From the NCBI RefSeq assembly GCF_036013975.1, contig NZ_CP107904.1, forward strand, positions 4,985,001 to 5,049,000: DNA of 64,000 nt. The letters are read 5' to 3'. Both the position numbers and the translations under genes were made by a program. Origin of the DNA: Kitasatospora sp. NBC_00458 (GTDB lineage: Bacteria; Actinomycetota; Actinomycetes; Streptomycetales; Streptomycetaceae). Of the stretch, positions 1 through 25,710 are shown piece after piece. The notes below the pieces were generated by a model that had not been told where the DNA came from, did not search any database, and saw nothing but the letters and a program-made list of their open reading frames with translations. The stretch's first letter is position 1. Each line of letters starts with the position of its first letter.

Positions 1-2235
<2,235 letters not shown>

Positions 2236-2317
2236 GTTGCTCGCGTCCACTGTGTTGTTCTGAAACAACGACCCCCATGACATGGCCTGTCGTGGGTGCG
2301 GTTGACAGTTTCATAGT

Positions 2318-2435
2318 GTTTCGGTGGTCATAGCGTGAGGGAAACGCCCGGTTACATTCCGAACCCGGAAGCTAAGCCTCACAGCGCCGATGGTACTGCA
2401 GGGGGGACCCTGTGGGAGAGTAGGACGCCGCCGAA
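2318..2435 (+). rRNA. 5S ribosomal RNA
   Basis: A 5S rRNA follows the 23S gene after a spacer of about 80 bases. It starts near GTTTCGGTGGTCATAGCG and ends near ACGCCGCCGAAC, and the two ends can pair to form the terminal helix. The conserved GAACCCGGAAGCTAAGCC (loop B/helix III region) and GGGAGAGTAGGACGCCGCC are present. The ends are approximate by one to three bases. Confidence 0.95.
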
Positions 2436-2445
2436 CAATCATTCA

Positions 2446-17344: not shown

Positions 17345-18076
17345 TCAGGCCGCCAGATCGGACTCGGGCGGCTGCTCGTCGGCCCGGACAGCGCCCCGGG
17401 AGCCACCGCCGCGTCGGCGCCCGCCCGTCCGTCGGCCGCCGCTGCCGCCGCTGCCGCCCTGAGGGGCGCGGATCAGCGGAGCGAGCGCCGTCCGGCCGAT
17501 CGCGTGGCAGAGCGGGACGAGCACGGCCATCGCGATCGGCGCCAGCAGCAGCACCACCGCGGTGGCCAGTGCGAAGCCGCCGATCACGTCGGTGGGGTAG
17601 TGGACGCCCATGTACATCCGGCAGAAGCCCTGCAGCAGGGCCAGGACCCCGGCGATCCAGCCGAGCCGCCGGTTCACCAGGAAGAGCGCCACCGCGATGC
17701 CCATCGACATCGTGGAGTGGTCGCTGACGAAGGAGTACGTGCCCGCCTTGCCCTCGACCAGCACCTCCAGACCGGCGTGGTCGACGAAGGGGCGGGGGCG
17801 GTCCACGATGGCGGAGATCGGCAGGTTGGCCAGTTCGGCGACGGCGACCGCGATCGGGGCCCAGAGCAGCCCGGCGACGGCCACCGGGGCGTCCGGGCGG
17901 CGTCTGGCCTGGAGCCAGCCGATCAGGCCGAGCAGGGCCAGACCGAGCAGGATGCCGTACTCGCCGATCCAGGAGACCGTGTGGTCGAGCCAGGCCGGGG
18001 AACGCTCGGCCAGGCCGTTGACGGCGTAGAGGAGGTCGAGGTCGGGGTTGGTCGTGTCGGCAAGCGGCGTCGACAC
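17345..18076 (-). CDS. PAP2-family membrane phosphatase
   Basis: A 243-residue membrane phosphatase of the PAP2 superfamily, whose members dephosphorylate lipid phosphates such as undecaprenyl pyrophosphate or phosphatidic acid on the outer face. About five membrane segments are present. Catalytic motifs are IVDRPRPF (the RP part of KX6RP, but the usual lysine position is proline), SFVSDHSTMSMG (in place of PSGH) and CRMYMGVHYPTDVIGG (the R-X5-H-X3-D motif). The C terminus is a Gly/Arg-rich basic tail. GTG at 18076 has a perfect AAGGAGGTG upstream. A substrate such as undecaprenyl pyrophosphate is plausible but not proven. Confidence 0.88.
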   Translation of the reverse strand: MSTPLADTTNPDLDLLYAVNGLAERSPAWLDHTVSWIGEYGILLGLALLGLIGWLQARRRPDAPVAVAGLLWAPIAVAVAELANLPISAIVDRPRPFVDHAGLEVLVEGKAGTYSFVSDHSTMSMGIAVALFLVNRRLGWIAGVLALLQGFCRMYMGVHYPTDVIGGFALATAVVLLLAPIAMAVLVPLCHAIGRTALAPLIRAPQGGSGGSGGRRTGGRRRGGGSRGAVRADEQPPESDLAA

Positions 18077-18178
18077 GCCGCACCTCCTTCTGGTCCGCAG
18101 CACCTGATCGTTCCGGCCGTGGTCCGCGCAGCGCCGCCCAGGCCAGGTGGGCTGACGCGGGACCATCGGACACAACGT

Positions 18179-18219
18179 CATAACCGGTGCACAGCGTTCC
18201 ACGGAAACACGCGGTTATG
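18179..18219. promoter_or_regulatory. Inverted repeat upstream of PAP2 gene
   Basis: CATAACCG (18179-18186) and its complement CGGTTATG (18212-18219) are separated by 25 bases in an AT-richer patch about 100 bases before the PAP2 start. The spacing fits a regulator bound at two half sites or a promoter flanked by operators. The binding protein is unknown. Confidence 0.35.
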
Positions 18220-18270: not shown

Positions 18271-19539
18271 TCAGCTCTTTGCGGATTGTTGACCTGTACC
18301 TGCCGCGCCGGGGCCGGTGGCGACCGGGCCCCTGGCCGCCGCCGGCGCGGGGGTCCCGGCGGCGGGCCGACCGGCCGGCGCAGCGGGGGCCGGGGCGGCC
18401 GCCGCTGCGCCGGAGGCGTTCGAGGCGGTCGGGGTCGAGGCGGTCGGGGTCGAGGCGGTCGGGTTCGCGGCGGGGGTGGTCGGGGCCGCCGGGTCGCCCG
18501 GCCGGCTCGGGGCGATCACGGTGCCGTCCGCGTTGCGCACGGGCAGGGCCTCGGCGGCGTCCGAGGTGACCCGGGTGGCCCCGATGTACTCCTTCGTATC
18601 GATCTTGTCGTAGCGGATCACCGCGTTGGTGTGCGGAGCGTTGATCATGTACCCGCCGCCGACGTAGATGCCGACGTGGTGGATGCTGCGCGGGTCGCTC
18701 AGGTCGGTCGCCCAGAACACCAGGTCGCCCGGGCGCAGCTGGTCACGGGAGGGGTGCGGCCCGGCGTACCACTGGTCGTTGGCGACCCGGGGCAGCTTGA
18801 TGCCCACGGACTCGAACGCGGCCCGGGACAGCCCCGAGCAGTCGAACCGCCCGTTCTGCGACTCCAGGCCGTCGCCGCCCCAGAGGTAGGGGGTGCCGAG
18901 CTTCGTCTGGGCGAAGTAGATCGCGCCCGCCGCCTGCGCGGAGACCTCCACCGGTGCGACCGGCGCGGCGAAGCTGCGGGCCGACGCGAGGATGTTCCGC
19001 ACGTAGCCCTGGGTCTCCCGGTACGGCGGCACGCCCTGGTACTTCGTCACCGCGCCCGGGCCGGCGTTGTAGGCGGCCAGCATGTTCGACTGGCGGTCAC
19101 CCGGGACCTTGGCGACGTAGGCGGCCAGTGCGCAGTCGAACGTGGCCGCGGAGGCGATCGCGTCCAGCGGGTCCCACGGGTCCTTCCGGCCGTCGTTGTT
19201 GCCGTCCGTGCCGTATGCCGTCCAGGTGTCGGGCATGAACTGCGCCAATCCCTGGGCGCCGACGTAGGAACGGGCGCGCGGGTCGAAACCGCTTTCCTGG
19301 TAGAGCTGCGCCGCGAGCAGTGGTGGCGAGAGGTCCGGGCAGAGCTGACCCCACTGCTGGATCGGCCCCTGGTACGCCGCCGGAACGGTTCCCGAGGAGA
19401 GGCCGGCGCGATTGCCCGACTGTTGTGGTGTCCCACTCGCCGCGAACGTCCCGACGGTCACCAGACCGACGAAGCCGATCAGGACAACTCCCGCAGCGGC
19501 GGCGGCCGTACCGGCCTTCCGGAGTACCATCAGCACCAT
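18271..19539 (-). CDS. Bifunctional lytic transglycosylase / NlpC-P60 endopeptidase (VirB1-like)
   Basis: A 422-residue wall hydrolase with two catalytic domains. A membrane anchor or signal spans residues 10-34. The transglycosylase domain (about 60-190) has the catalytic Glu82 in LYQESGFDP, then GLAQFMPDTW and AYNAGPG. The NlpC/P60 domain (about 200-335) has Cys234 in RFDCSGL, His288 in HHVGIY and His303 in APHTN. The C-terminal 80 residues are an Ala/Pro/Thr-rich tail encoded partly by 15-bp repeats. The pairing of the two activities is typical of VirB1-like proteins of Gram-positive type IV secretion systems, and it is divergent from the T4SS-like operon at 19773, which strongly suggests it opens the wall for that machine. 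An in-frame ATG at 19530 is an alternative start. Confidence 0.9.
   Translation of the reverse strand: MVLMVLRKAGTAAAAAGVVLIGFVGLVTVGTFAASGTPQQSGNRAGLSSGTVPAAYQGPIQQWGQLCPDLSPPLLAAQLYQESGFDPRARSYVGAQGLAQFMPDTWTAYGTDGNNDGRKDPWDPLDAIASAATFDCALAAYVAKVPGDRQSNMLAAYNAGPGAVTKYQGVPPYRETQGYVRNILASARSFAAPVAPVEVSAQAAGAIYFAQTKLGTPYLWGGDGLESQNGRFDCSGLSRAAFESVGIKLPRVANDQWYAGPHPSRDQLRPGDLVFWATDLSDPRSIHHVGIYVGGGYMINAPHTNAVIRYDKIDTKEYIGATRVTSDAAEALPVRNADGTVIAPSRPGDPAAPTTPAANPTASTPTASTPTASNASGAAAAAPAPAAPAGRPAAGTPAPAAARGPVATGPGAAGTGQQSAKS
18420..18463. repeat. 15-bp coding tandem repeat in hydrolase tail
   Basis: TCGAGGCGGTCGGGG is repeated at 18420-18434, 18435-18449 and 18450-18463 (last copy lacks one base of identity). 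On the minus strand it encodes repeated PTAST units of the C-terminal tail, so copy number can change without a frameshift. Confidence 0.8.
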
Positions 19540-19686
19540 CCCGACGAATCGTCAGTCGAAGTGTCCCGGAAGGCGTTGCTCACCGCAATCATCAGAGATA
19601 CAAAGAGTGAGCGCTATCCTTCGTACGGTGGACATCCTCGCGTACGTGTCCGATGCCTCACGACCAATCTGCGAGAAGTAGCCAAG

Positions 19687-19715
19687 TCGACATCAGATCT
19701 GGCCAAGAATAGGTA
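19687..19715 (+). promoter_or_regulatory. Putative promoter of the T4SS-like operon
   Basis: TCGACA (19687-19692), a 17-base spacer and TAGGTA (19710-19715) match the -35/-10 pattern of a vegetative Streptomyces promoter. It lies in the AT-richer divergent spacer, 57 bases before the first gene of the operon. Confidence 0.5.
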
Positions 19716-19772
19716 CCGACCCTTCGCGCGGGCGGGGTCTGGGCCCTTGAATTTGCCTGATCGGGCGGTGAG

Positions 19773-20129
19773 ATGGAAATGAACCTGAGCAGCGTGGACA
19801 GCATCGCGATCGGCCACCTGGCCGAGGACCCTCCTAAGAAGCCGAATATCGACACCATCATCGGCGGGATCGCCCCGGACTGGGGCCCGTTCGCGAGCCT
19901 CGGCTCCGAGGCCCGGGTGATGGTCCAGGTCGTCATGGCCGTGGCGATCCTGGCCTGCCTCGGCCTCGCCGTCTGGGGTGCGGCCAAGCAGCGGATCGGT
20001 GCGACCGCGATGCGTGACAGCTTCGGTGCCGAGCAGGGCAAGGGGCTGATCATCGCCGGTCTGACCGGCGTGTTCATCATCGGATCACTCGGAACTCTGT
20101 TCACCATTGTGTACGGAATGGCCATCTGA
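19773..20129 (+). CDS. Small two-TM protein, VirB2/pilin-like (cmd cluster)
   Basis: A 118-residue protein with two membrane segments (about 47-70 and 91-116) joined by a short basic loop, and a 45-residue polar N terminus (ending GGIAPDWGPF). This size and topology match VirB2-like pilin or TrbC-like small subunits of Gram-positive type IV systems, though sequence alone cannot prove it. It is first in a five-gene operon with VirB8-, VirB6- and VirB4-like products. ATG at 19773 or 19779 may be used; GGCGGTGAG lies upstream of both. I recall the S. coelicolor counterpart as part of the cmdABCDEF cluster of membrane proteins affecting differentiation. There is no conventional signal peptide. 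Confidence 0.75.
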   Translation: MEMNLSSVDSIAIGHLAEDPPKKPNIDTIIGGIAPDWGPFASLGSEARVMVQVVMAVAILACLGLAVWGAAKQRIGATAMRDSFGAEQGKGLIIAGLTGVFIIGSLGTLFTIVYGMAI

Positions 20130-20332
20130 CGATCGGACAGATCCGGCGGTGACGGAGCGGGGAGGCGGGGGCTGCCCGCCACCGGACCGCCCGCCTGACC
20201 GGACGACCGGCCGCCGGCCGCGACCCGTCGGAGCCCCGCCGGGAGTCCACCCCACCACCCCTCCCTCCGCGCCCGCCCACGGGCGGAGGGGCCCCCGGAG
20301 CCACCCCGGCTCCCCGCACCAGGAGGGCCGCC

Positions 20333-21160
20333 GTGCCGTTGTCCGACGACCAGCCGCACACCCGTACGCGGCTGCCGGTCGGTGAACAGCCCTCGTCCCT
20401 CGCGACAAGCCGTCAGCAACGGCCGCTGAGGACCCTGATGACGGTCCTGGCGGTGGTCACCCTCCTGGTGGTCGCGATCTCCATCGCCAACCGGGGCAAG
20501 CCCGACCCGACCACCACCACGGCCACCGCGGCCGGCTCCGCCGACCGGGCCGCCCCGAGCGCCGCCTCCGGCGCGGGCCCCGCGCCCAGCGGCGACCAGC
20601 CCGTGGCCACCACCACGAACGGCATCGCCGCCGGCCACCCGCACACCGACCAGGGCGCCCAGTCGGCCGCGGCCAACTACGCGGTGGCCATCGGCTCCAC
20701 CGACATGTTCCGCGCCGACAGCCGTCACACCATCGTCGCCACCATCGCCGACCCCGCCGCCGCCCCGGCCCTCCAGGCCCGCCTGGACCAGGGGTTCGGC
20801 GGCGACACCGTGACCCGCTACGGCCTCGACGCCCAGGGCCGCGCGCCCAAGGGCCTCACCTTCGTCAGCCGCACCGTTCCGGTCGGCACCAAGGCAGTCG
20901 GCTACAGCGACGCCGAGACCAAGGTCGAAGTCTGGTGCACCGGCCTCACCGGCCTCGCCGGCGAACGGTCCGTCCTGCCGGTCGTGGCGAACTGGTTCAC
21001 GCTCACCTTCACGCTCCGCTGGACGGGCAGCGACTGGAAGCTCACCGACTACGCCAGCCGGCAGGGCCCCGCCCCCATGCCCGGCGACCAGCAGGCCGCC
21101 ACCGCCGAGGAGATCACCGGCGCCGTCCAGCAGTTCGGGGGTTTCCGTTATGCCCGCTGA
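20333..21160 (+). CDS. VirB8/TcpC-like single-TM protein (cmd cluster)
   Basis: A 275-residue protein with a basic cytoplasmic lead, one membrane helix (about 33-52), a Thr/Ala/Ser/Pro linker (55-95) and an extracellular domain of about 170 residues. The domain pattern (a helical start QSAAANYAVAIGS, mixed strands, and TLRWTGSDWKLTDY near the end) looks like the NTF2-like fold of VirB8/TcpC, the bitopic core subunit of type IV systems. Its place between pilin-like and VirB6-like genes supports this. GTG at 20333 has AGGAGGG six bases upstream. It overlaps the next gene by 11 bases. The fold is inferred from pattern, not from alignment. Confidence 0.78.
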   Translation: MPLSDDQPHTRTRLPVGEQPSSLATSRQQRPLRTLMTVLAVVTLLVVAISIANRGKPDPTTTTATAAGSADRAAPSAASGAGPAPSGDQPVATTTNGIAAGHPHTDQGAQSAAANYAVAIGSTDMFRADSRHTIVATIADPAAAPALQARLDQGFGGDTVTRYGLDAQGRAPKGLTFVSRTVPVGTKAVGYSDAETKVEVWCTGLTGLAGERSVLPVVANWFTLTFTLRWTGSDWKLTDYASRQGPAPMPGDQQAATAEEITGAVQQFGGFRYAR

Positions 21161-22505
21161 CCACGTACCGAACCGTCGTAGCACGCGCCGAGGTGCCGTC
21201 GCCACGCCTTCCGGTCACAGCACCGCCCGTCGGGCCGGCGCGGTGGCGGGTGCCGTGGCGACCCTCCAGCTCGGGGCGCTGCTCGTGGCGCAGCGGGTGT
21301 TCGCCGAGCCGTCACCGACGGCGACGCCGTCGCCCGGTGCGACGCCGACGGCCACACCCAGTGCGAACTGCCCTGACCTCCCGATCTCGGGAAACGGCAT
21401 TCTCTGCGTCGACAAGCCCGGCGGGGGGGCCTCCATCCCCGGGAGTGGGACGGTGGGGGGTGTGACGGATCCGCTGGGGTCGTTGGCGAAGGGGTGTGCG
21501 CAGGCCGCGGCGTGGGTGGTGCGGAAGCTGTCGGGGGCGATCGACGGGACGACGGAGGTGGACTTCACCAACGCGTCGTTCCTGCAGCAGTACGCGGTGG
21601 TGTTCGCCGCGTCGACGATCATCACCCTGGTGCTGTGGCTGCTGGCCGTGACCAAGCGGGCGGTCCGCGGGGCGCCGCTGGCGACGGCGTTGTCGGAGGC
21701 GATCGGGTTCCTCTGGCTGACGGTGGTGGCCTCGGCGTTCACGCCGCTGATCCTGTACACCGTGGTGAGTGCGACGGACGGGCTGACCAAGGCGATCGCG
21801 GTGGGGACGAAGTCGGACACCGGGACGTACCTGGGGGGGTTCGCGGACACCCTGGAGAAGGGTGACATGGGCGGCGGTCCGCTGATCTTGATCATCGTCT
21901 CGCTGGTGGCCGTGCTGGCGGCGGCGGTGCTCTGGATCGAGCTGCTGATCCGGGCGGCGATGCTGTACGTGGGCGCGCTGCTGGGGACGGCGGTGTACGC
22001 GGGGCTGGTGGACAAGCAGTTGTGGAAGCACGTGCGCCGCTGGGCGGGGCTGATGGTGGCGGTGGACCTGGCGAAGCCGATCATCGTGATCATCCTCGGG
22101 CTGGCCGGTGCGGTGGCGGCCGGGGCGGGTGCGACCGACGACTTCGCCCGGGTGCTGTCGGGGTTGGCGATCCTCTTCCTGTCGATCTTCGCGAGCGCCG
22201 CCGTGTACCGGTTCGTGCCGGGCTTCGGCGACGAGATGGTGAACATGCGCCAGGCCCGGGCCAGCGCGGTGTCGGCCGGATCGGCGATGATCAACGGGAC
22301 CGCGAACCTGATGAAGCAGGGCATCACCACCCACGGCGACCGCGGTCCGCAGCCGGGCGGCGGCGGTTCGGGCGGGGGCGGCGGCTCGGTCGCGCCGGGC
22401 ATCGCCGCCCACGCGGCGCGGACGCCCGCGCCGCCGCAGCAGGCCGGGCCGCCGGCCCAGGCCGCGGGGGCGATCCGCGACAGCAATCCAGCGAAGGGAG
22501 GGTGA
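21150..22505 (+). CDS. VirB6/TrbL-like polytopic membrane protein (cmd cluster)
   Basis: A 451-residue membrane protein with an N-terminal hydrophobic signal (about 28-52, ending RVFAEPSP), a Cys-flanked short extracellular stretch (Cys74, Cys86), and six membrane helices near 147-167, 185-207, 243-265, 267-286, 300-325 and 335-355. The C-terminal 80 residues are Gly/Ala/Pro-rich and soluble. This layout is typical of VirB6/TrbL channel components of Gram-positive type IV systems. ATG at 21150 overlaps the end of the upstream gene, so translation is coupled. Residues are actinobacterial in composition and show no sign of recent transfer. Confidence 0.82.
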   Translation: MPADHVPNRRSTRRGAVATPSGHSTARRAGAVAGAVATLQLGALLVAQRVFAEPSPTATPSPGATPTATPSANCPDLPISGNGILCVDKPGGGASIPGSGTVGGVTDPLGSLAKGCAQAAAWVVRKLSGAIDGTTEVDFTNASFLQQYAVVFAASTIITLVLWLLAVTKRAVRGAPLATALSEAIGFLWLTVVASAFTPLILYTVVSATDGLTKAIAVGTKSDTGTYLGGFADTLEKGDMGGGPLILIIVSLVAVLAAAVLWIELLIRAAMLYVGALLGTAVYAGLVDKQLWKHVRRWAGLMVAVDLAKPIIVIILGLAGAVAAGAGATDDFARVLSGLAILFLSIFASAAVYRFVPGFGDEMVNMRQARASAVSAGSAMINGTANLMKQGITTHGDRGPQPGGGGSGGGGGSVAPGIAAHAARTPAPPQQAGPPAQAAGAIRDSNPAKGG

Positions 22506-22512
22506 CGGGTAA

Positions 22513-24087
22513 GTGAGCAGCGAACCGCTCGGCCAGTACGGTGCCCAGTACGCCCAGTCGTACGTGCACCAGCGCCGTACCTATCTGATCGGCAAGGCCC
22601 GCCCGAACGCGCCGATCGGCCGGAACCGCGAGTCCGGCGAGATCGTGCTGATCATCTTCGGGGCCTTCCTCGGTATGGTCTGGGGCCTGATGATGCCGAT
22701 CCTGCCGTTGCGGATCGGGGGCCTGGTGGGCCTGCCCCTGCTGGCGATCGCGGCGGTCTACGTGCCGTACCGGCGCCGGACGTTCTACAAGTGGGTGGAG
22801 ATCAACCGCACCTACCGCCGGACGGTCCGCAGCGGGCGCGGGGTGTGGAAGTCGGAGGTGATGGACGCCGGGACGCGGCTGGACGGCCGCGAGGTGGAGA
22901 TCGGCCCGCCGCCGGGGGTCGGGCGGCTGCGCTGGCTGGCCGCGCCGTTCGGGCCGGACGAGGTCGGGGTGCTGATGCACCTGGAGCGGCGCACGGTGAC
23001 CGCGGCGATCGAGATCGAGGGCCCGGGCGTCGGGCTGCGGGACTCGGAGGACCAGGAGGCGCTGGTCGACCGGTTCGGGACGCTGCTGAAGCACGTCGCC
23101 AACGGGGACGGCTTCGTGACCAGGCTGCAGATCCTCGCCCGCACGCTGCCGGCCGACCCGGACGCGCACGCCAAGGACGTGGAGCGGCGCGGGGACCCGG
23201 ATTCGCCGCGCTGGCTGAAGGACTCGTACGACCAGTTGCAGTCGATGGTGTCGACCTCCTCCGAGCAGCACCGGGCGTACCTGGTGGCGTGCATGCACTA
23301 CACCCGGGACCTGGCGGCCGAGGCGCACGCGATGGGCCGGACGGCGACCGGGCGGCGGGCGCGGGACGACGAGGGGCTGGCCGCGGTGATGGCCCGCGAG
23401 CTGACCGACATCTGCGCGCGGCTGGCGGAGGCGGACATCCGGGTGCGGCAGCCGCTGGGCCAGGCCCGGCTCTCCTCGCTGCTGCACTCGATGTACGACC
23501 CGGACCACCCGATCGACCACATCCAGGCGATGTCGAAGCGGAACGCCTGGCCGGCCGAGCTGGACGCGACGCACCCGCAGTACCTCCAGGCGAAGACCCG
23601 CGAGTCGGCGACCCGGGAGCCCTGGTGCCACGCCACGGCGTGGGTCAAGGAGTGGCCGCTGACCCCGGTCGGCGTCAACTTCCTGGCGCCGCTGCTGGTG
23701 CACACCCCGGACGTGATCCGGACGGTGGCGGTGACGATGGACCTGGAGCCCACCGACGTCGCGATCGAGCGGATGCTCACCGAGAAGACCAACGACGAGG
23801 CGGAGGCGAGCCGCGCCGCCAAGATGAACCGCACGGTCGACCCCCGCGACCTGGCCCACACCGGCCGGGTGGACCAGCGCGGTGACGACCTGGCGTCGGG
23901 CGCGGCCGGGGTCAACCTGGTCGGCTACATCACGGTCTCCTCGCGCAACCCGGACGCGCTGGCCCGGGACAAGCGGACGATCCGCGCCTCGGCCGGCAAG
24001 AGCTACCTGAAGCTGGAGTGGTGCGACCGCGAGCACCACCGCGCCTTCGTCAACACCCTGCCGTTCGCCACCGGCATCCGCCGCTGA
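22513..24087 (+). CDS. SCO6880/PrgI-like protein: VirB3 plus VirB4 N-terminal half
   Basis: A 524-residue protein with two membrane helices near 43-62 and 65-85 (a VirB3/PrgI-like module), followed by a long soluble part lacking a Walker A motif. The soluble region resembles the N-terminal domain of VirB4/TraC-type proteins and the SCO6880 family found in actinobacterial conjugative elements. The next gene supplies the ATPase half, so together the two proteins reconstitute one VirB4 with a membrane anchor. GTG at 22513 follows GGAGGGTGACGGG, seven bases after the VirB6-like stop. I recall the S. coelicolor counterpart as a Cmd protein. Confidence 0.85.
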   Translation: MSSEPLGQYGAQYAQSYVHQRRTYLIGKARPNAPIGRNRESGEIVLIIFGAFLGMVWGLMMPILPLRIGGLVGLPLLAIAAVYVPYRRRTFYKWVEINRTYRRTVRSGRGVWKSEVMDAGTRLDGREVEIGPPPGVGRLRWLAAPFGPDEVGVLMHLERRTVTAAIEIEGPGVGLRDSEDQEALVDRFGTLLKHVANGDGFVTRLQILARTLPADPDAHAKDVERRGDPDSPRWLKDSYDQLQSMVSTSSEQHRAYLVACMHYTRDLAAEAHAMGRTATGRRARDDEGLAAVMARELTDICARLAEADIRVRQPLGQARLSSLLHSMYDPDHPIDHIQAMSKRNAWPAELDATHPQYLQAKTRESATREPWCHATAWVKEWPLTPVGVNFLAPLLVHTPDVIRTVAVTMDLEPTDVAIERMLTEKTNDEAEASRAAKMNRTVDPRDLAHTGRVDQRGDDLASGAAGVNLVGYITVSSRNPDALARDKRTIRASAGKSYLKLEWCDREHHRAFVNTLPFATGIRR

Positions 24088-24105
24088 TCCACCTGGAGGC
24101 CCCGC

Positions 24106-25455
24106 ATGGCGATCGGCAACCTCACCGACGCGTTCACCAGCCTGATGTACGGCAAGGTGGAGACCACCCGGCTGCCGGTGCGCACCTCGACCGGCCAGGC
24201 GCAGGCGGTCTACCTGCCGACGGCCGCGCCGGGCCTGGGTGACTCGGGCGTGATCATCGGGCGCGAGGTGTACAGCGGCAAGGGGTACGTCTACGACCCG
24301 TTCCAGCTGTACGGGCAGCAGCTTCCGGCGCCGCACTGGCTGGTGCTCGGCGAGTCCGGGAACGGCAAGTCCGCGCTGGAGAAGACCTACGTGCTGCGCC
24401 AGCTGCGGTTCCGGGACCGGCAGGTGGTGGTGCTGGACGCGCAGGGCGAGGACGGGGTCGGCGAGTGGAACCTGATCGCCAACGCGCTCGGCATAAAGTC
24501 GATCCGGCTGGACCCGATGGCGGCCCGGGACGGCGGGGTGAAGCTCAACCCGCTGGACCCGGCGATCACCCAGACCGGGCAGTTGTCGCTGCTGCGCACC
24601 ATCGTCGAGGTGGCGATGGGGCGGGGTCTGGAGGAGCGCGCGGGGTTCGCGCTGAAGGCCGCGCACGCGCACGTGGTCGCCAGTGTGCTGGACCGGCAGC
24701 CGGTGCTGGACGACATCATCGACACCCTGCGCAACCCCGAGCTGTCCTCGGTGGAGTCGCTGGGGGTGGCGGTGGACGAGGTGCAGTCCTGGGGCCTGGA
24801 CGTGGCGCTGGTGCTGGACCGGCTGGTCGACGGTGACCTGCGGGGCATGTTCGACGGTTCGACCACCGACGGCATCGACCTGGACGCGCCGCTGATCGTC
24901 TTCGACCTCTCGCACATCGACCGGAACTCGATCGCGATGCCGATCCTGATGGCGATCGTCGGGGTCTGGCTGGAGCACACCTGGATCAGGCCGGACCGGA
25001 AGAAGCGGATCTTCCTGGTCGAGGAGGCCTGGCACATCATCAACAGCCCGTTCGTGGCCCAGCTGTTCCAGCGCCTGCTGAAGTTCGGCCGCCGGTTGGG
25101 CCTCTCCTTCGTGGCGGTGGTGCACCACCTGTCGGACGTGGTGGACGGCGCGGCGGCCAAGGAGGCCTCGGCGATCCTGAAGATGGCCTCCACCCGGACG
25201 ATCTACATGCAGAAGGCGGAGGAGGCGCGGGCCACCGGCCGGGTGCTGGGTCTGCCGCGCTGGGCGGTGGAGATCATCCCCACACTTTCGCCGGGCATCG
25301 CGGTCTGGGACGTCAACGGGAACGTCCAGGTGGTGAAGCACATCATCACCGAGGCGGAGCGCCCACTGGTCTACACCGACCGCGCGATGACCGAGGACGC
25401 CGTGGCCGAACGGGTCCGTGCGGAGCGCCACTTGGCGGCCGAGCCCGGCGTCTGA
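24106..25455 (+). CDS. VirB4/TraC-like ATPase (cmd cluster)
   Basis: A 449-residue ATPase of the VirB4/TraC/HerA group, which energises assembly or substrate movement in type IV systems. Walker A is GESGNGKS at residues 82-89, Walker B RIFLVEEAWHII near 300-311, and downstream conserved elements are FGRRLGLSFVAVVHHLSD and KMASTRTIYMQ. It lacks the VirB4 N-terminal domain, which is encoded by the preceding gene 18 bases away. It is not an FtsK/TraB-type translocase and not a VirD4 coupling protein, as no membrane segment is present. ATG at 24106 is preceded by CTGGAGGCCCCGC. It ends the operon; a stem-loop follows. Confidence 0.9.
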   Translation: MAIGNLTDAFTSLMYGKVETTRLPVRTSTGQAQAVYLPTAAPGLGDSGVIIGREVYSGKGYVYDPFQLYGQQLPAPHWLVLGESGNGKSALEKTYVLRQLRFRDRQVVVLDAQGEDGVGEWNLIANALGIKSIRLDPMAARDGGVKLNPLDPAITQTGQLSLLRTIVEVAMGRGLEERAGFALKAAHAHVVASVLDRQPVLDDIIDTLRNPELSSVESLGVAVDEVQSWGLDVALVLDRLVDGDLRGMFDGSTTDGIDLDAPLIVFDLSHIDRNSIAMPILMAIVGVWLEHTWIRPDRKKRIFLVEEAWHIINSPFVAQLFQRLLKFGRRLGLSFVAVVHHLSDVVDGAAAKEASAILKMASTRTIYMQKAEEARATGRVLGLPRWAVEIIPTLSPGIAVWDVNGNVQVVKHIITEAERPLVYTDRAMTEDAVAERVRAERHLAAEPGV

Positions 25456-25459
25456 GCCG

Positions 25460-25489
25460 GCGCCGGGGGTGCTTCCGGCGCCCCGGCGC
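25460..25489 (+). terminator. Stem-loop after the T4SS-like operon
   Basis: GCGCCGGGG (25460-25468) pairs with CCCCGGCGC (25481-25489) around a 12-base loop, five bases after the ATPase stop codon. It is GC-only without a T tract. Confidence 0.6.
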
Positions 25490-25710
25490 GCGCTCCGGAG
25501 GCGCCGGTGGCGGGTGCCCGCCGGGGGGCCTCCGGGGTCCGTCGGAGGGAAAGTCCGACGACGATTCGTCAGTAGGTAACCCTGTCGTTACGTCCAGGGT
25601 CCTGACAGCTACGCGCGTTGACTCTAGGCTGCACTCGCGCAACGACACTCAGCGCCCGCCCGGACCCGTCCACAGCAGGGCGCTCTCTCTCAGCTGCAGG
25701 GGACCCCTAC

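Follow-up and report, generated by a model that had tools for sequence, protein, structure and literature searches.

A chromosomal cmd cluster of Kitasatospora is probably a domesticated type IV secretion system with a divided VirB4 and a lost coupling protein

The 64,000-nucleotide stretch of the 8.01-Mb chromosome of Kitasatospora sp. NBC_00458 analyzed here (hereafter, the window) carries, at positions 18271-25455, one minus-strand wall hydrolase gene and five closely packed plus-strand genes. These genes correspond to tgdA and to cmdF, E, D, C, and B of Streptomyces coelicolor, in which the co-transcribed cmd cluster was described in 2009 (PMC2782261). The five-gene order and the divergent dual hydrolase are the same as in the S. 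coelicolor locus (cmdABCDEF, SCO4126-4131, and tgdA, SCO4132), which, in contrast to that of Kitasatospora, also includes cmdA. We conclude that the cluster is probably a type IV secretion system (T4SS) of a split-VirB4 kind, domesticated and passed on vertically in the chromosome, that works independently of the coupling protein VirD4 and has an envelope or cell wall role in development. The layout of the cluster is not a chance arrangement because the F-E-D-C-B order is found again in other loci of the family Streptomycetaceae and on conjugative plasmids. The new element of this analysis is the fate of the coupling protein in cmd loci; neither the identification of CmdA as a decayed VirD4 nor that of CmdC as the VirB4 N-terminal domain is stated in the two cmd studies PMC2782261 and PMC6585502.

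The putative motor consists of CmdC and CmdB. CmdC, which has two hydrophobic segments, belongs to the SCO6880 family, and an alignment of about 330 columns links the profile of this family to the N-terminal domain of single-chain VirB4 proteins of Gram-positive plasmids (PrgJ family; hhalign, 94.4%, E = 8.7e-8; unrelated pairs used as negative controls gave 1% or less). Firmicute PrgJ proteins served as the reference because PF03135, the canonical VirB4 N-domain family, yielded zero matches in 198 actinomycete genomes; a scan of viral contigs for PrgJ relatives was empty as well. The VirB3-like transmembrane (TM) hairpin would span residues 44-86 of CmdC. Its direct match to the PrgI/VirB3 profile is 13.5%, and PrgI matches, all in plasmid relatives of CmdC (best E = 9e-5), lend it weak support. 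An AlphaFold model of CmdC built from cmd orthologs was discarded (predicted local distance difference test score, pLDDT, 45), and the profile comparison was used instead. CmdB contains no hydrophobic segments and resembles the VirB4, TraC, and TraG ATPases (99.7% against the VirB4 C-terminal profile; E = 8.9e-5 against the solved VirB4 structure 4ag5), with the Walker motifs whole in 80/80 orthologs. In half of the orthologs, residue 90 is the lysine of Walker A, consistent with the published K90 mutation. Considering that CmdC aligns with the VirB4 N-domain and CmdB with the VirB4 C-terminal profile, the VirB4 predicted here is divided over two chains, with the Walker A and B motifs of the ATPase on one and the N-domain on the other. 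The pCF10 system of Firmicutes has VirB3/PrgI and the VirB4 N- and C-domains, of which the cmd system has predicted counterparts, but there PrgI is separate and VirB4 is one chain, whereas in the cmd system one protein combines the putative VirB3-like hairpin with the N-domain and a second carries the ATPase. As a separate observation, three SCO6880-family proteins (L130:7851-9380, L126:6938-8494, and L132:8013-9515) match Pfam EccE, a type VII secretion family (best E = 1.5e-5), pointing to a possible remote link between T4SS-like and type VII machines.

The remaining genes encode counterparts of the T4SS membrane and wall components (Table 1). CmdE is predicted to adopt the VirB8 fold: in the AlphaFold2 (AF2) model, in which residues 91-240 have a pLDDT of about 88 or above, the top structural matches are DotI, IcmL-like proteins, VirB8, TrwG/J, CagV, and TraE (Z-scores from 13.3 to 11), followed by generic NTF2-like folds (Z-score about 10), and the CmdE profile matches plasmid VirB8-like proteins at 99.4%. 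Sequence searches of solved structures with the CmdE and CmdC profiles returned nothing usable. CmdD, a polytopic protein of the VirB6 type, still matches the proteins that occupy the VirB6 position on distant plasmids when the near plasmids are excluded (99.7%, E = 4e-26). TrbL_4 was weakly matched, under the cut-off, in 8/35 CmdD members, and no match was obtained with pCF10 PrgH alone. A further comparison of CmdD with a VirB6 set (B6) was void, as the set shared members with CmdD, and was replaced by the separate clean test just given. CmdF is placed where a VirB2-like protein would be expected, and its profile matches the small two-TM proteins of near plasmid systems at 99.2% but those of far systems at 36%. 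The divergent hydrolase combines SLT and NlpC/P60 domains, as expected of a VirB1 wall hydrolase. An initial annotation of the window, made from the sequence alone, had positioned all these genes correctly and had recognized the divergent VirB1-like dual hydrolase, the single-TM VirB8-like, six-TM VirB6-like, and VirB4-type proteins, as well as the match to the S. coelicolor cluster, all of which are borne out. The two-TM VirB2-like protein that it proposed stands in its segments, its place, and its near relatives, but less so in the far ones.

Table 1. Features of the cmd locus, in window coordinates
Feature	Position	Strand	Evidence or remark
PAP2 phosphatase, BcrC/undecaprenyl-diphosphatase-like	17345..18202	-	downstream of the wall hydrolase gene; PAP2 E = 5.9e-18
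Dual wall hydrolase, VirB1-like, tgdA/SCO4132 position	18271..19539	-	SLT E = 9e-17; NlpC/P60 E = 2e-23
Divergent intergenic region, presumed promoter/regulatory	19540..19772		very strong conservation among Kitasatospora
CmdF, small two-TM protein, VirB2-like position	19773..20129	+	two hydrophobic segments
CmdE, VirB8/TcpC-like, one TM and NTF2-like domain (predicted)	20333..21160	+	AF2 model; structure and profile matches
CmdD, polytopic, VirB6/TrbL-like	21150..22505	+	six hydrophobic segments
CmdC, SCO6880 family, putative VirB3/PrgI-like TM hairpin and VirB4 N-terminal domain	22513..24087	+	NCBIfam SCO6880_fam E = 1.6e-57
CmdB, VirB4 ATPase domain	24106..25455	+	Walker A GESGNGKS (Lys88); Walker B FLVEEAW; AAA_10, P-loop_TraG
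Site of cmdA in other genera of the family	25456..25617		no remnant here

The initial annotation had reported no VirD4. This is true of Kitasatospora, but the wider cmd operon, as the annotation missed, does include a coupling-protein relative. A VirD4/TraG relative, CmdA, is encoded directly after cmdB in 62/62 loci of the family outside Kitasatospora (counts of CmdA in the family are locus-based; in 4 of these 62 loci, a contig end cuts the copy short). The Pfam match of these copies is mostly marginal. Of the copies that extend over the Walker A site, only that of Wenjunlia tyrosinilytica has kept the motif (GSPGTGKS); the glutamate of the Walker B acidic pair is not retained; and the proteins are truncated at the C-terminus, ending 3-80 residues past a motif beyond which a plasmid type IV coupling protein (T4CP) continues for 120 residues. 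All 29 additional genomes of the family carry cmdA, none with a P-loop, two of the copies being cut before or near the motif. The domain with the lost ATPase motifs is, at the same time, the best conserved stretch of CmdA, with a mean identity of 64%. Thus, as judged from its sequence, CmdA is a predicted pseudo-enzyme that is less strongly constrained, rather than a random sequence.

In Kitasatospora, no CmdA-type gene was matched in the loci or in the window, and neither a match to the CmdA/T4CP family model nor a TraG-D_C coupling protein was found anywhere in the 8.01-Mb genome. This genome-wide negative is informative because the same model detects mobile-element T4CPs in 27/70 congeners. 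The best five CmdA-like matches in Kitasatospora genomes were rejected as CmdA because all of them resemble full mobile-element T4CPs. These sequence comparisons indicate that the coupling protein is decayed in most genera and that its gene is gone in Kitasatospora. The existence of mobile-element T4CP genes in some congeners raises the alternative that the Kitasatospora system still transfers DNA with a borrowed coupling protein. We consider this very unlikely, given that the genome analyzed here has no such gene and that 4/5 tested Kitasatospora T4CPs adjoin their own cmdB-like ATPases (27-35% identical). Nor was a relaxase of the two families searched, TrwC and PF03432, found in the genome, in agreement with the relaxase-free locus reported initially; a conjugative element would be expected to have both this enzyme and a VirD4-type coupling protein. 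There is no tRNA gene in the window. The genome does encode FtsK (at 5985786) and other FtsK/SpoIIIE-domain proteins. Two long open reading frames with several FtsK/SpoIIIE domains (G000:C1:3190350-3192155 and 4898579-4900681) resemble the type VII EccC ATPases.

CmdB is present in 47/47 sampled Streptomycetaceae at 84-100% identity (a count based on the absence of family members from the genomes listed without a match). Outside this family, identity is mostly 38% or less, with one exception at 79%. This exception (L135, G007:C878; family f8) is a cmd cluster with a hydrolase and a csoR-like neighbor, from a genome with 6% contamination and of uncertain origin. The tree of CmdB and CmdC clusters by genus, with Kitasatospora forming a single clade (support 1.0), and synteny from csoR to htrA is retained in the Kitasatospora loci. 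The GC content at third codon positions of the cluster genes (0.87-0.985) is similar to that of their neighbors, in line with the host-like codon use noticed initially. On this tree-based evidence, the cluster is vertically inherited. In the tree, the Wenjunlia copy with the P-loop pairs with that of a Wenjunlia lacking it, and the remaining Streptomyces form the sister group of these two; an ancestral P-loop would imply a minimum of three losses. The ratio of nonsynonymous to synonymous substitution rates (dN/dS) is 0.02-0.13 for CmdB, 0.08-0.12 for CmdC, 0.06 for CmdF, 0.2-0.4 for CmdD and CmdE, and 0.25-0.45 for CmdA, values that place CmdB under strong purifying selection. That the cluster is a leftover of an integrated conjugative element, either inactive or breaking down, could be read from the failure to detect a T4CP or a relaxase of the two families searched and from the decay of cmdA, but is hardly credible: it is already contradicted by the purifying selection on CmdB, CmdC, and CmdF, by the presence of the cluster in all sampled family members, and by mutant phenotypes known in three species.

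A second chromosomal T4SS-like locus, with VirB6-, SCO6880-, and VirB4-like genes, was observed in three genomes of another actinomycete family, f15 (L132, L133, and L134 in genomes G075, G102, and G031). The dual hydrolase of L132 is 45% identical to that of the window, no T4CP was seen in the fetched stretches of the three loci, and similar ATPase matches occur in about 22 genomes of f15.

Each Cmd product matches a component of conjugative actinobacterial plasmids with the same gene order, the nearest plasmid copies being only about 41% (CmdC) and about 47% (CmdB) identical. The SCO6880-family plasmid T4SSs, found, for example, on plasmid unnamed3 of Kitasatospora sp. NBC_01302 and on large linear Streptomyces plasmids, encode in succession a hydrolase, a small TM protein, VirB8, VirB6, SCO6880, and VirB4; the hydrolase of plasmid systems is either the same dual enzyme or an NlpC/M23 hydrolase. 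In contrast to the Kitasatospora cmd cluster, these plasmids mostly carry an intact coupling protein (TraM-recognition/TraG type) right behind the VirB4 ATPase and, in some cases, MobF or another relaxase. The transfer genes of SLP2 (Streptomyces lividans) include, like cmd, a VirB4-like gene and a bifunctional lytic transglycosylase/C40 hydrolase but no VirD4; they differ in being plasmid-borne, in having an FtsK/SpoIIIE pump of the TraB type, and in being essential for conjugation, for which the chromosomal cmd cluster is no substitute. VirB machines that function without a coupling protein are known in Ptl, Brucella VirB, Helicobacter pylori ComB, and Bartonella Trw (PMC12857230). These, however, are Gram-negative systems with an outer-membrane core, whereas the cmd system is monoderm, is tied to development, and has a coupling protein in the course of decay.

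The surroundings of the cluster point to the cell envelope. The hydrolase is divergently placed in 52 loci, and in most of these, it is adjoined by an ortholog of the PAP2 phosphatase, a protein that also matches the NCBIfam undecaprenyl-diphosphate phosphatase, under the curated cut-off (E = 4.7e-15). Along its entire length, the intergenic region between the hydrolase gene and cmdF shares 95-99% identity with its counterparts in nine close congeners, more than the synonymous sites of the operon, at which differences amount to about 17-38%; the nearly invariant blocks include AGCCAAGTCGACATCAGATCTGGCCAAGAATAGG and CCTTGAATTTGCCTGATCGGGCGGTGAG. This region matches no Rfam family. A search for the known WhiG, BldN, BldD, and other developmental promoter motifs upstream in the window detected none except for short GACAC words, which on their own are no evidence. 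The last part of an rRNA operon, with 23S and 5S, occupies window positions 1-2436, about 16 kb upstream of the cluster.

Published genetics agrees with the sequence picture of an intact CmdB and a decayed CmdA. In S. coelicolor, cmd mutants are impaired in sporulation, branch aberrantly, make errors in chromosome segregation, and produce actinorhodin early, and null mutants of cmdB-F are sporulation defective whereas the cmdA mutant sporulates normally (PMC2782261). In an independent study, transposon insertions in cmdBCDEF and tgdA, but not in cmdA, raise actinorhodin equally (PMC6585502). K90 and K404 of CmdB are required. CmdB was likened to VirB4, and a type IV-like channel was proposed, as early as 2009 (PMC2782261); the concept of a domesticated T4SS, which gains from the component homology, the predicted VirB8 fold, the split VirB4, vertical inheritance, and the lack of detected mobility genes, is not new as such.

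The combination of a constrained motor, a decayed loader, no detected relaxase of the two families searched, no element context, and developmental phenotypes argues for a domesticated machine without a coupling protein. In the proposed mechanism, CmdC, with the VirB3-like hairpin and VirB4 N-domain, and the CmdB ATPase would form the motor, CmdD (VirB6) and CmdE (VirB8) the base of a membrane channel, and CmdF a small VirB2-like subunit, with TgdA, the VirB1 counterpart, opening the wall. Substrate loading through VirD4 would have been abandoned, the coupling protein turning into a pseudo-ATPase in most genera before its loss in Kitasatospora. The VirB4-powered complex would then work without it; its most likely task would be to export or assemble a component of the envelope and to localize wall remodeling during aerial growth and septation; the effects on chromosome segregation and pigment would be indirect.

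The initial annotation had left protein export, DNA movement between hyphal compartments, and wall remodeling side by side. Sequence cannot separate these, but the decay of VirD4 and the phenotype shared by tgdA and cmd mutants make DNA transfer less likely than a task at the envelope or wall; the common pigment phenotype and the conservation of the neighboring hydrolase and BcrC-like PAP2 genes point the same way. The main rival, by analogy with SLP2, is a DNA-handling channel at sporulation septa that, with a chromosomal FtsK-type pump such as those encoded in this genome, clears or moves chromosomes between pre-spore compartments. It would account for the anucleate spores (6-8%) and uneven chromosomes of cmd mutants, and in SLP2, an FtsK/SpoIIIE gene and a dual hydrolase gene lie beside the cmdB homolog, the related genes being required for plasmid transfer. 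We nevertheless regard it as improbable because the DNA-coupling ATPase of the family is decayed or missing, transfer of SLP2-derived plasmid is unaffected by loss of the cmd cluster, branching and delayed aerial growth arise before septation, and the pigment phenotype is common to tgdA mutants.

A second rival retains the wall but dispenses with transport: the VirB proteins would do no more than position and activate the hydrolase and the recycling of envelope lipids (PAP2). Although the conserved neighbors, the similar antibiotic production of tgdA and cmd mutants, and a degenerate, dispensable coupling protein are all compatible with such a factor, it is unlikely, as VirB6- and VirB8-like parts are retained together with a VirB4 ATPase under strong constraint, which suggests that something is actively transported or assembled. 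Several points weigh against the domesticated, VirD4-independent T4SS itself. The CmdC assignment draws on profile comparison, the structure model having failed; the single complex, its channel, and its substrate are predictions; and CmdA may still have a role, its inactive domain being its best conserved part. Moreover, SLP2 moves DNA with related genes and the FtsK-like TraB, so that, by this analogy, the absence of VirD4 would be compatible with a DNA substrate, and the chromosome-segregation defect could be direct.

T4SSs are familiar as machines that conjugate or that deliver substrates to other cells. More tentatively than the domesticated T4SS as such, we propose that cmd is a conjugation machine turned into a permanent developmental organ, that is, a VirD4-independent, VirB4-driven monoderm T4SS that may act inside a single organism, at the walls of sister compartments or between these compartments, its coupling protein having become a pseudo-ATPase and then been discarded in one genus. 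If true, a T4SS without a substrate-loading ATPase would be present in all sampled members of the family and required for normal sporulation, implying that such machines can gain a housekeeping role in development. The cmd system would then offer a monoderm setting for studying VirB4 alone and a monoderm counterpart of the Gram-negative VirD4-less T4SSs. The series from plasmids with an intact VirD4, through the one Wenjunlia copy that keeps the P-loop and the dead copies of Streptomyces, to Kitasatospora, in which the gene is gone, opens the old question of what VirB4 does in the absence of VirD4 to tests in a genetically tractable model organism.

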